Positions 19,020-53,732 of a stretch of 64,000 nucleotides of DNA are shown piece after piece (position 1 is the stretch's first letter; every line of letters begins with the position of its first letter). Both the position numbers and the translations under genes were made by a program. Source of the DNA: Actinomyces radicidentis (GTDB lineage Bacteria; Actinomycetota; Actinomycetes; Actinomycetales; Actinomycetaceae); contig NZ_CP014228.1 of the NCBI RefSeq assembly GCF_001553565.1, positions 62,001 to 126,000 on the forward strand. Reading direction: 5' to 3'. The notes under the pieces were generated by a model that had not been told where the DNA came from, did not search any database, and worked only from the letters and a program-made list of their open reading frames with translations.

Positions 19020-19033
19020 TCTTCACGTGTGTG

Positions 19034-19151
19034 CTCGGCGGTGTCCTACTCTCCCACACCCTAGCGAGTGCAGTACCATCGGCGCTGGGAGTCTTAGCTT
19101 CCGGGTTCGGAATGGGACCGGGCGTGAACCCTCCCGCTATGACCACCGAGA
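19034..19151 (-). rRNA. rrf: 5S ribosomal RNA
   Basis: On the minus strand the sequence reads CTCGGTGGTCATAGCGGGAG at the 5' side and GGACACCGCCGAG at the 3' end, which pair as helix I. The internal CCATTCCGAACCCGGAAG is the 5S loop B-C signature. Ends are estimated to a few bases. Confidence 0.95.
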
Positions 19152-19270
19152 CGACCAAACAGGCAACACACGGTCGTCGGAAAAACCACTATCCAACATG
19201 TCACACAACCCCGCCAGGTGAGGCTCGAGCCGTGACCGGCCGGCCCCCCCCTGTTGTTGTTCGGGGTTGG

Positions 19271-19304
19271 TGGGTTGGTCGTGAACCGCACAGTGGACGC
19301 AAGC
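19271..19304 (-). other. Pre-23S processing stem, 3' arm
   Basis: This segment after 23S can pair along all 34 positions (four as G-U wobbles) with 22551-22584 before 23S, looping out the 23S rRNA. That is the double-stranded stalk expected to be cut by RNase III. Confidence 0.75.
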
Positions 19305-19350
19305 GCAAAAGATCATTTCATCCCCCTGCCACGAACGTGGCCGGGGGGCG

Positions 19351-24440
<5,090 letters not shown>

Positions 24441-50583: not shown

Positions 50584-50614
50584 GTTTCCGAGTTAGTGCG
50601 ACTCGATGTATTGT
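50584..50614 (+). promoter_or_regulatory. padR promoter with candidate operator
   Basis: A TTCCGA -35-like element, 17-base spacer and TATTGT -10 at 50609-50614 lie six bases before the padR GTG, so the message would be leaderless. CGAGT-N7-ACTCG (50589-50605) is a perfect inverted repeat that fills the spacer and could be the PadR operator, also in reach of the divergent ABC operon. Confidence 0.45.
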
Positions 50615-50620
50615 GCTGGC

Positions 50621-51199
50621 GTGCTCGACCTCAAGATCCTCGGATTCCTCGACGACGGCCCCCTCCACGGCTACGAGCTGCGCCGCCGCATCAACGAGCT
50701 CGGCGGCCCCGGCTCCCACCTCTCCGAGGGCGCCCTCTACCCCGCCCTCGCGCGTCTCGAGAAGGCCGGGATGCTCACCCGCACCGAGGCGCCCGGCGCG
50801 CGGGGACGCGCCCGGAAGGTCCTCACCATCACCACCGCCGGCCGCGAGCGCCTCCACGAGCTCCTCCGCGAACCGAGCGAGTCGGCGATCGCCTCCATGC
50901 CGAGCTTCCTCGAGCACCTCGCCTTCCTCTCCCACCTGCCCGACGCCGCCGCGAGGCGCGCGGTCCTCGAACGCCGCCTGGACGTCCTCACCGGCGAACC
51001 GCCCGCCTTCTTCTACGACGACGGGCGCCCCCGCCGCGCCTCCCAGGAGGAGGATCCCTACCGGCTCGGCATGATCCGCGTGGCAGGGGCCTCGCGACGG
51101 GCCGAGATCATCTGGCTGCGCGAGATGCTCGCCGCCCCCGCCGAGGCGGTCCGCCCGGCCGCGCCCGGCGGCGCGACCACCACCCCCGAGGAGAGCTGA
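50621..51199 (+). CDS. PadR-family transcriptional regulator
   Basis: A 192-residue repressor with an N-terminal winged HTH: LKILGFLDDGPLHGYELRRR, SEGALYPALARLEKAGML and the wing region (to about 85), then a C-terminal helical dimerisation domain (about 90-190) with SFLEHLAFLSHLPD. An ATG is also in frame five codons upstream, but it would overlap the -10. The stop is one base before the oxidoreductase ATG, so the two are coupled. Confidence 0.9.
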   Translation: MLDLKILGFLDDGPLHGYELRRRINELGGPGSHLSEGALYPALARLEKAGMLTRTEAPGARGRARKVLTITTAGRERLHELLREPSESAIASMPSFLEHLAFLSHLPDAAARRAVLERRLDVLTGEPPAFFYDDGRPRRASQEEDPYRLGMIRVAGASRRAEIIWLREMLAAPAEAVRPAAPGGATTTPEES

Positions 51200-51200
51200 G

Positions 51201-52139
51201 ATGAGCACGAGCACCACCCCGAGCACCATGCGCGCCGCCGTCCTCACGGCGCCCGGCATCGAGAACCTCACGGTCACCGACGTCCCCGTCCCCGCCCCGC
51301 GGCCGGGCTGGGTGCGGATCAAGGTCATGGCCTTCGGCCTCGACCGCTCCGAGTACCACTCGGTCACCGGCCAGGCCGGCGGCATGTCCTACGCGCGCGT
51401 CCTCGGCATCGAGGCCAGCGGAGTCGTCGACCTCAACCCCGACGGCGTCCTCGCCCCGGGCACGCAGGTCGCCACGATGATGGGCGGGATGGGGCGCGCC
51501 TTCGACGGCGGCTACGCGCAGTACGTCGTCGTGCCCCGCGCGCAGGTCCTCCCCTTCTCCTCCGACCTGGACTGGGCGACGATCGGCTCGGTCCCCGAGA
51601 CCCTCCAGACCGCCCACGGCTCCCTCACGACGGGCCTGGACCTGCCCGCCGGCGGGACGCTCCTCGTGCGCGGCGGGACGTCCGCGCTCGGTCTGGCGGC
51701 CGGCGCGCTGGCGCGCGACCGCGGATGCCGGGTGCTGGCCACCTCTCGTCACGAGGCGGGCCTGGCGGCCCTCGCCGAACGGGGCCTCGAGCCGGTCCTC
51801 GACGACGGCGACGTGGCCGGGCGGGTGCGCGAGCTCGTGCCGGGCGGCGTCGACGGCGTCCTCGAGCTCGTCGGCGTGCCGACCCTGCGCGACTCCCTGC
51901 TCGCCACCAGGGTGCACGGGACCGTGTGCTTCGCCGGGATGCTCTCCGACTCGTGGACGATCCCGACGTTCTACCCGATGGACTGGCTGCCCAACGGCGT
52001 GCGCCTCACCGCCTGCTCGGGTGAGTCGAGCGACCTGCCGGCCGCGGAGCTCCAGCGGGTGCTGGACCGAATCGCCTCCGGTGCGCTCAACCTCCTGCCG
52101 GTGCGCTCCTACCCGCTGGAGGAGATCGTGGCCGCTCAG
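51201..52139 (+). pseudogene. Zinc-type alcohol dehydrogenase-like oxidoreductase, 5' part, split by IS110
   Basis: An MDR-superfamily NADPH-dependent oxidoreductase (quinone-oxidoreductase branch): MRAAVLTAPGIENLTV N-terminus, GIEASGVVDLNP, nucleotide-binding LLVRGGTSALGLAAG, and no zinc-ligand pattern. The reading frame is intact to CAG (Gln) at 52137 in EEIVAAQ, where the IS110 element begins; translation then runs into IS sequence and stops at 52280. The missing C-terminus is found beyond the IS at 53676-53732. Loss of the last 18 residues may or may not abolish activity. The padR operon context suggests a stress or xenobiotic response. Confidence 0.9.
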
Positions 52140-52269
52140 ACGCTATGGGGGTGCGCGAGGCCGTCGTGGTCTTGTGGGCCAGGGCCTCGCGTATGCAACC
52201 TTCGTGGATCACCACCGAGGCGGTCGTTAGGGGACCGCTGCGGGGTGCCGACATGCATAGGAGACCCTG

Positions 52270-53376
52270 GTGATTACTGAGCGTACAAGCCTGGGGCTGG
52301 ACGTTCACGCCCGCAGCGTGAGTGCCGCCGCCATCGATACCCTCACCGGCGAGGTGATCCAACGCCGCCTGGACGGCGAGTACAGCCACACCATCGACCT
52401 GGCCTCACGCCTGGCCGCCGAGCACGGACCACTGCTGATCACCTACGAGGCAGGCCCCACCGGCTTCGGACTGGCCCGCGAGCTGACCGCCGCGGGCCAC
52501 CGGGTGCAGGTCGCCGCACCCTCGAAGCTGGCCCGCCCCGCCGGACAGCGGGTCAAGACCGACCGCACCGACGCGATGTTCCTGGCCGAGTGCGCCCTGA
52601 ACGGCACGATCACGCCCGTGCGCATCCCTACCCTGGCCCAGGAGGGCGCCCGCGACCTGGTGCGATCCCGCGACGACGCCCGCACCGACCTCATGGCCGC
52701 CCGCCACCGCCTGTCCAAGATGCTGCTGCGCCGCGGATGGGTCTACCCCGGCAAGACCACCTGGGGACCCGCCCACGACGCTTGGCTGCGCGCACTGCGC
52801 CGCGAGGACGTCCCCGCCCTGGGCGCCGGCGCCACCGCGGCCTTCGACGACGCCTACGACACCGTCACCCACACCCTGGCACGACGCGACCGCCTCGATA
52901 CCGCCATCGCCGCCCTGGCCGCCGACAGTGAGTTCACCCCCGTCACCGCCCGCCTGTCCTGCCTGAGAGGCATCTCCACACTGACCGGCTTCGCCCTCGC
53001 CGTCGAGATCGGCGACTGGCACCGCTTCACCGGCGCGACCATCGCCTCCTACCTCGGACTGGTCCCCTGCGAGCACTCCTCGGGCCAGACCCGCACCCAG
53101 GGCGGCATCACCAAGACCGGCAACACCCACGCCCGACGTCTCCTGACCGAAGCCGCCTGGCAGCACAAGAGCCCCTACCGCCCCGGCCCCGCCCTGCGAG
53201 CCGCATGGGCCAAGGTCCCCGGGGACGTCGCCACCCGGGCCGACACCGGCAACAGGCGCCTGAACAGGCGCTGGCAGACCCTGGCCAGCCACCACAAACG
53301 TCACACGATCGCCAACACCGCCATCGCCCGGGAGCTCGCAGGCTGGTGCTGGTCCCTGGCCGTCATGGACCACTAG
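52270..53376 (+). CDS. IS110-family transposase (DEDD recombinase)
   Basis: A 368-residue enzyme with an N-terminal RuvC-like DEDD domain: Asp11 in LGLDVHARS, Glu in TYEAGPTGFG, and KTDRTDAMFLAE with paired Asp. The C-terminal Transposase_20 domain contains GISTLTGFALAVEIGDW, FTGATIASYLGLVP and TGNTHARRLLTEAAW with the conserved Ser/Thr region. It is full length, so the element may still be mobile. GGAG precedes the GTG start. IS110 enzymes use a bridge RNA made from a noncoding end to choose donor and target. Confidence 0.95.
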   Translation: MITERTSLGLDVHARSVSAAAIDTLTGEVIQRRLDGEYSHTIDLASRLAAEHGPLLITYEAGPTGFGLARELTAAGHRVQVAAPSKLARPAGQRVKTDRTDAMFLAECALNGTITPVRIPTLAQEGARDLVRSRDDARTDLMAARHRLSKMLLRRGWVYPGKTTWGPAHDAWLRALRREDVPALGAGATAAFDDAYDTVTHTLARRDRLDTAIAALAADSEFTPVTARLSCLRGISTLTGFALAVEIGDWHRFTGATIASYLGLVPCEHSSGQTRTQGGITKTGNTHARRLLTEAAWQHKSPYRPGPALRAAWAKVPGDVATRADTGNRRLNRRWQTLASHHKRHTIANTAIARELAGWCWSLAVMDH

Positions 53377-53675
53377 AACGCCCACAGACCGCGCTGACCG
53401 GCACCACCAGGGCCCAGAGGGGAAGCAGCGTGAGGAGGACACCGGCGATTCGACTGTGAGCACCCCCAAGGGCACGCTCGACCTCAGACAAGCCAGCTCC
53501 TCCCACCGAAACCAGCGTCATGCGGCACACAGACCCGCGCATATCAGACTGACCACGCGTCGACACCAGACACGCCACCCCCACCCCACCGGCCAACGCC
53601 GAAGAGGGGGCACCCACCGGCCAGTGGATGCCCCCTCTTCACCCTGCCACTTGACAGGAAACCCCTACATATCAG
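53377..53675 (+). ncRNA. Right noncoding end of IS110 element, candidate bridge RNA
   Basis: A 299-base region without a gene between transposase stop and element end. A stem with 12-bp arms (53601-53612 and 53629-53640) and a shorter inner CCAC/GTGG stem is present near the end. By analogy with IS1111-type elements the bridge RNA could be here; in IS110-type elements it would be in the left end. No guide loops were matched to the target. Confidence 0.4.
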
Positions 53676-53732
53676 TCGGACATGGCCCGCGGCGGCCCGC
53701 CCGCCAAGCTCGTCGGCCTGCCCTGGGCCTGA
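53676..53732 (+). pseudogene. Oxidoreductase, 3' remnant beyond the IS
   Basis: Reads SDMARGGPPAKLVGLPWA then TGA, in frame with the 5' part once the IS is removed. The GGPPAKLV segment is the usual C-terminal strand of this oxidoreductase family. Confidence 0.85.

Follow-up and report, generated by a model that had tools for sequence, protein, structure and literature searches.

The locus examined here raises two questions: what an inserted transposable element has done to the gene that it interrupts, and what directed the element to that position. The gene lies in a window of 64,000 nucleotides from Actinomyces radicidentis, the window being the whole stretch of DNA that was analysed. Elsewhere in the window a complete 5S-23S-16S ribosomal RNA operon is encoded on the minus strand (19033-24440), and it explains a stretch of low G+C content. 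The analysis indicates with good confidence that an RNA-guided transposon of the IS110 family, with a stop-codon word as its target, entered the 3' end of an oxidoreductase gene adjacent to padR. Taken by itself this lesion, one oxidoreductase cut by an insertion sequence, is ordinary.

The interrupted oxidoreductase gene

The 5' part of the gene (zinc-type dehydrogenase/oxidoreductase, PF00107 and PF08240) comprises 313 codons on the plus strand at 51201..52139. The initial annotation had read the open frame as stopping at 52139 with CAG (Gln313) and picking up at 53676 with TCG (Ser), with TCAG on the plus strand at both junctions (52136-52139 and 53672-53675), and this reading was confirmed. 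The cut-off 3' end, 18 codons and a stop, occupies 53676..53732 on the same strand, its TGA being at 53730-53732. When the flanks were joined in silico, an enzyme of 331 amino acids followed by a stop was recovered, with the expected C-terminus AAQSDMARGGPPAKLVGLPWA. The element can be removed exactly, as had been proposed, but not as one copy of TCAG plus 1536 bp; the period of 1536 bp is the total removed, 4 + 1532.

Comparison with uninterrupted homologs supported the joint. Of the 29 genus loci fetched and searched, 25 could be aligned over the joint, and each of these continues through it without a gap. Beyond the joint every one of these homologs has a tail of 16-18 residues containing the motif GKLVG[LM]P, which in the window enzyme reads AKLVGLP. 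The TCG that follows TCAG belongs to the target: without it the enzyme would fall one residue short of each of the 25 homologs, and the reading frame therefore fixes what the target contributed. An empty site from the same species was not found, the DNA of the best near-full-length homolog in the genus being 80% identical, and the exact predicted empty-site word GCTCAGTCGGAC was seen in none of the other genomes. The 939-bp gene piece had DNA matches in 45 of 49 genus genomes (its own included), a large part of which were short and are probably spurious, and in its own genome there was no second near-full-length match to the gene.

A padR-like regulator gene (PF03551, 66.4 bits) lies just upstream at 50606..51199 on the plus strand, and a padR homolog was present within the fetched flank at 21 of the 29 genus loci. 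Control of the oxidoreductase by PadR may be inferred from this adjacency. The insertion had been described as disabling the enzyme or shortening it by 18 residues. The tail is indeed lost, but the product is not merely shorter, since the frame gains 46 codons from the element to reach 359 residues; in the list of open reading frames it remains open to 52280, overlapping the transposase start at 52270. Deprived of its conserved 18-residue tail and carrying 46 residues encoded by the element, the oxidoreductase has probably lost its function. The open hybrid frame does leave room for a 359-residue product that is still active, or the gene may be dispensable and the event neutral, but such an outcome is unlikely given that all 25 homologs that span the joint in the alignment conserve the tail missing from the hybrid. 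On the side of dispensability, only parts of the oxidoreductase gene match at 4 of the 29 genus loci (L046, L047, L048, and L049), none of them at contig ends, so that the gene may be dispensable in some species. These four loci retain padR. At one other locus (L027) the oxidoreductase matches as two pieces, perhaps because of a frameshift.

The element, its copies and its ends

The element occupies 1536 bp on the plus strand (52140..53675), as delimited by copies in the same genome. Its transposase gene (52270..53376, plus strand) has a GTG start and encodes 368 amino acids. The annotation as IS110 was upheld by a match to NF033542, the NCBI model of IS110-family RNA-guided transposases, at 200.5 bits (cutoff 140), and the protein contains the N-terminal DEDD domain PF01548 (47.1 bits) and the C-terminal domain PF02371 (61.4 bits). 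The SG motif of the transposase, S271-G272, is invariant in A1. Profile matches in PDB were to the C-terminal parts of the ISCro4 and IS621 transposases (E 1.7e-9 for IS621). The short left non-coding end (52140..52269, plus strand), which starts ACGCTATGGGGG, gives 130 bp upstream of the transposase gene, as against approximately 299 bp downstream. Within the downstream part is a 40-base hairpin at 53601..53640 (plus strand), a near-perfect inverted repeat detected as an opposite-strand self-match of 90%. A TTGACA word resembling a -35 box at 53651-53656, inside the right end, recurs in relatives, and a promoter might be formed if the ends were circularised.

Other copies of the element were sought, as had been suggested, and seven further full copies with identical TCAG ends were found in the 3.05-Mb single-contig genome. 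Over 1540 bp each has between 0 and 5 differences from the window copy, and this identity of at least 99.6% supports the view that the insertion was recent. All eight full copies have one pair of ends, which places the element boundaries where they had first been drawn. A ninth copy, which is not full, spans the contig origin. This copy stops at an internal word, CATATCAG, which was considered as an alternative right end and rejected, because an ISL3 element (end GGCTCTTCGCAGTT; PF01610 and PF14690) cuts the copy there; the internal word is the donor guide described below. The contig itself starts inside a copy of the element, and a 429-amino-acid open frame of IS110 transposase type adjoins the copy cut by ISL3 (end of L087 and L088:1-3400). 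Plasmids yielded three partial records, none of them a near copy covering most of the element, and the protein relatives on plasmids were about 61% identical or less among the matches listed (30 of 638 records matched). One relative was found on a viral contig. A search of the 13 genomes behind the TCAG-type loci yielded few extra close copies, which were left out of the counts.

TCAG borders all eight full copies on both sides (left and right words at 52136..52139 and 53672..53675 in the window), and the three letters that follow the right TCAG are TCG in six copies, GCG in one, and CCG in one. A relative in genome G032, 80% identical in DNA, has the same ends. Flanking words of this kind could in principle be an ordinary 4-bp target duplication made by a DDE-type transposon. 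That origin is very improbable, because a duplication would vary from site to site and TCAG is one constant word over all copies, because the transposase carries DEDD and IS110 domains, and because five copies of a relative in genome G156 (56% identical protein) have GAAG at the left junction and TCAG at the right. These observations favour instead insertion by an IS110-type element at a short core common to donor and target, and long terminal inverted repeats are absent from the eight full copies and from the G156 copies. The initial annotation had taken TCAG as the target core. It is the common word at both ends of the window element, but only AG is common to both junctions of the G156 relative, and from these alignments the recombination core is probably AG rather than TCAG.

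The predicted guide RNA

The non-coding region downstream of the transposase gene contains a predicted guide (bridge or seek) RNA with approximate ends at 53427..53590 (plus strand), delineated from an alignment of 46 such regions and their consensus structure. On the same strand within it are the right-target guide TTCGACT at 53449..53455, which is the complement of AGTCGAA (the six-letter form TCGACT begins at 53450), the left-target guide CCTCAG at 53482..53487, which equals the left target, and the donor guide CATATCAGAC at 53540..53549, which equals the right and left ends of the element joined.

Relatives were obtained from a scan of genome contigs, and 80 were kept of at least 535 confirmed. 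The table of guides and junctions had 81 rows (the 80 relatives and the one on the viral contig) plus 10 elements from the A. radicidentis genome, G032, and G106, or 91 in all, the guides of these 10 being entered by hand from the sequence. L185 and L186, whose right ends were not found, were dropped, as were elements in which an end or a guide could not be read, leaving 67 right and 70 left pairs.

Across these pairs the region holds guides for both target strands and for the donor, and guides and targets agree. The target also reaches further to the right than the TCAG first proposed, as the second and third letters to the right of AG match the guide in all 67 elements; for letters one to five the matches are 51, 67, 67, 56, and 21 of 67. 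When the right side was reduced to 58 distinct pairs, 228 of 290 letters matched, compared with a permutation mean of 101.1 and maximum of 141, and none of 5000 permutations reached the observed total. On the left side, the guide agrees with the two letters that precede AG in 65 and 68 of 70 elements, and 103 of 160 letters matched in 40 distinct pairs (permutation mean 74.7, maximum 108; 1 of 5000 reached it). The permutation support is weaker on the left than on the right. The G156 relative, whose target is CGAAG/TCCGC, has the guides GCGGAC and CTCGAAG at the corresponding positions, matching its own target. Its copies (L093, L097, L099, L101, and L103) are found within an interspersed repeat, cgaagtccgctc, and represent a natural case in which the guide has been redirected to a target other than a stop word. 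At L133 and L163 the left flanks, AACAAG, do not match the elements' own guides as those of the other relatives do, perhaps because of another left end or a rearrangement.

In the consensus structure of the 46 guide regions the two target guides lie on opposite strands of one internal loop and the donor guide adjoins a second hairpin. Paired letters occupied 95.9% of cells, and there were 77 double-change cells, compared with 18.6 in shuffles and 10-30 when partners were slid, counts that are biased towards the structure, as they were made on the alignment that yielded it. A single guide RNA folded alone was unremarkable (z -1.16; 26 of 200 shuffles folded equally well). An Rfam match of the region to MIR3627, obtained at a lax threshold, scored 21.6 bits, below the gathering score of 64, and was taken as chance.

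These features suggest how the site might have been chosen. The downstream non-coding region would be transcribed into a guide RNA with an internal loop, each strand of which would pair with a different strand of the target: one would spell the left half CCTCAG and the other the right half AGTCGA. Such an RNA would most likely select CTCAG-TCGA. Recombination at the common AG would then insert the element and leave TCAG at both ends. Since the right end of the element is ATATCAG, a host gene converging on it would keep or regain its TGA stop, and most copies would leave the coding sequence intact; the constancy of this word in distant relatives is partly by construction, as right ends were located by the word ATATCAG. 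In the window the same word would have been used within the body of a gene on the sense strand, with loss of the tail.

Stop-codon positions and comparison with known systems

On the opposite strand the target reads TCGAC-TGA-GG, in which a TGA stop stands together with the codon before it. Neither the guide RNA nor the positions of the sister copies at stop codons had been recognised in the initial annotation. In the A. radicidentis genome, six of the eight full copies (own3 to own8, loci L003-L008) have immediately to their right an open frame that is 247 codons long or more and terminates at the core TGA. Chance long open frames are common in G+C-rich DNA, and the frames were therefore checked against Pfam. 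Five of the six contained a family: amino-acid kinase, YflT-domain protein, ABC ATPase, glycerol-3-phosphate dehydrogenase, and GDSL hydrolase. In the YflT-domain frame the domain is not C-terminal, and the frame downstream of own5 had no Pfam family. The G032 copy sits behind a frame resembling nicotinate phosphoribosyltransferase. Ten further downstream proteins (10 of 13, with L111, L113, and L119 left out) included nine with a Pfam family, bringing the total to 15 of 17 with the six of seven earlier frames. In several of these the domain ends near the inferred C-terminus (DeoC at 318 of 323, MOSC at 311 of 314, PTS_IIB at 185 of 189, and aldehyde dehydrogenase at 315 of 330), and in a ROK protein it ends away from it, at 237 of 330. 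Two of the copies, own5 and own8, share 77 identical bases on the left (loci L083 and L086) and differ on the right, possibly one half of a terminator-like interspersed palindromic repeat near gene ends.

A coding-frame classifier called a stop position, the TGA that ends a convergent gene, for 17 of the 22 TCAG-guided insertions, 5 of 8 in the A. radicidentis genome and 12 of 14 elsewhere; L186 had been dropped from this group (17 of 23 with it included), and L141 lacked a right end. The same classifier called stop positions at 15 of 73 comparable TCAG[TCG]CG sites in the same loci (one-sided Fisher 2e-6 against 17 of 22), at 105 of all 774 TCAG sites there (7e-11), at 1 of 19 [CT]TCAG[TC]CG sites, and at 383 of 2640 random positions. 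The five insertions not called stop positions were own1, own2, own4, L111, and L119. Among TAG-guided relatives the excess was only weak: of the 27 elements that could be read on both sides, 14 were called, compared with 26 of 88 sites (p 0.03). Of the genic insertions, own2 interrupts a gene of the tyrosine-phosphatase family, the 3' piece of which matches the profile from position 19, and the window copy lies inside the oxidoreductase gene, where the same word is read on the sense strand (CAG TCG).

The excess at stops could also have arisen after insertion. If the guide targets a short TCAG-xCG word as such, selection may have purged insertions within genes and left those at gene ends as survivors. 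This account is a substantial possibility, to which we give a little less than an even chance. Sites of the form TCAG[TCG]CG without an element are already called stops in 15 of 73 cases, and loss of the others would increase that proportion; two of the eight full copies in the A. radicidentis genome lie inside genes, so genic insertion does occur. Against it, 77 of the 78 left guides of relatives keep a stop word (TCAG 13, CTAG 58, TTAG 5, ATAG 1) and right guides have 38 distinct 7-letter forms among 75, although the 78 left guides share descent, some being from one genome, and are not 78 independent events. The G156 copies have no stop word in the target and are outside the count of 78. Survivorship under purifying selection may add to the stop-codon bias or explain anything from part to much of it. 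As for guide-directed targeting of stops, we hold the chances to be about equal that in this actinobacterial clade the left guide is kept on stop words (TCAG, CTAG, and TTAG) while the right guide drifts and the right-end TCAG returns the stop, a safe-harbour mode of insertion of which the window copy would be a misfire.

If that is true, a selfish element whose RNA guide is programmable has evolved to target sites where its host is spared, in that the guide reads the stop and the end of the element rebuilds it, and tools for RNA-guided insertion might find natural safe sites at gene ends. The guide-target pairs are a natural set for a clade of IS110 elements with a downstream guide, and should be useful for studying pairing rules and tolerance of mismatches.

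RNA-guided targeting by IS110 and IS1111 elements is already known (PMC11208160, PMC11187229). In the portions of the open-access literature drawn on here, including PMC12500396 and PMC2194683, there was no report of an IS110 or IS1111 element that targets stop codons. IS900 of Mycobacterium avium subsp. paratuberculosis is likewise an actinobacterial IS110-family element without terminal repeats; the part of PMC8141618 used here does not report stop-codon targeting for it. The IS481-family elements ISLxc2 and ISLxx4 have a target, NCTAGN, that contains a stop word, but as described in excerpts of PMC2516522 their transposase is of another family and takes its own stop from the target, and no guide RNA is involved.

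Likenesses are also found among the guided elements. According to the sections of PMC11208160 consulted, IS621 shares the DEDD and PF02371 transposase domains and guides for two target strands, and its core dinucleotide CT is the same pair as AG read on the other strand. In IS621, however, the guide region is upstream and the targets are of the REP type, whereas here the guide is downstream and the targets are stop-codon words. Excerpts of PMC11187229 describe a long downstream non-coding region in IS1111 elements and in some IS110 members. Our element resembles the seekRNA elements of the IS1111 group (ISEc11 and ISPa11) in having the longer non-coding region downstream, in guide order, with the top-strand complement (TCGACT, 53450) located 5' of the top-strand match (CCTCAG, 53482), and in the motif GL-P----SG, present here as GLVPCEHSSG. 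It differs from them in its target and in its subterminal repeat, of which only TATG/CATA is exact by eye, approximately 4 bp. The IS1111 group is defined by subterminal inverted repeats of 7-17 bp (PMC11208160, in part), and because the repeat is below that range the element would, on its sequence, be filed only in the broad IS110 family.
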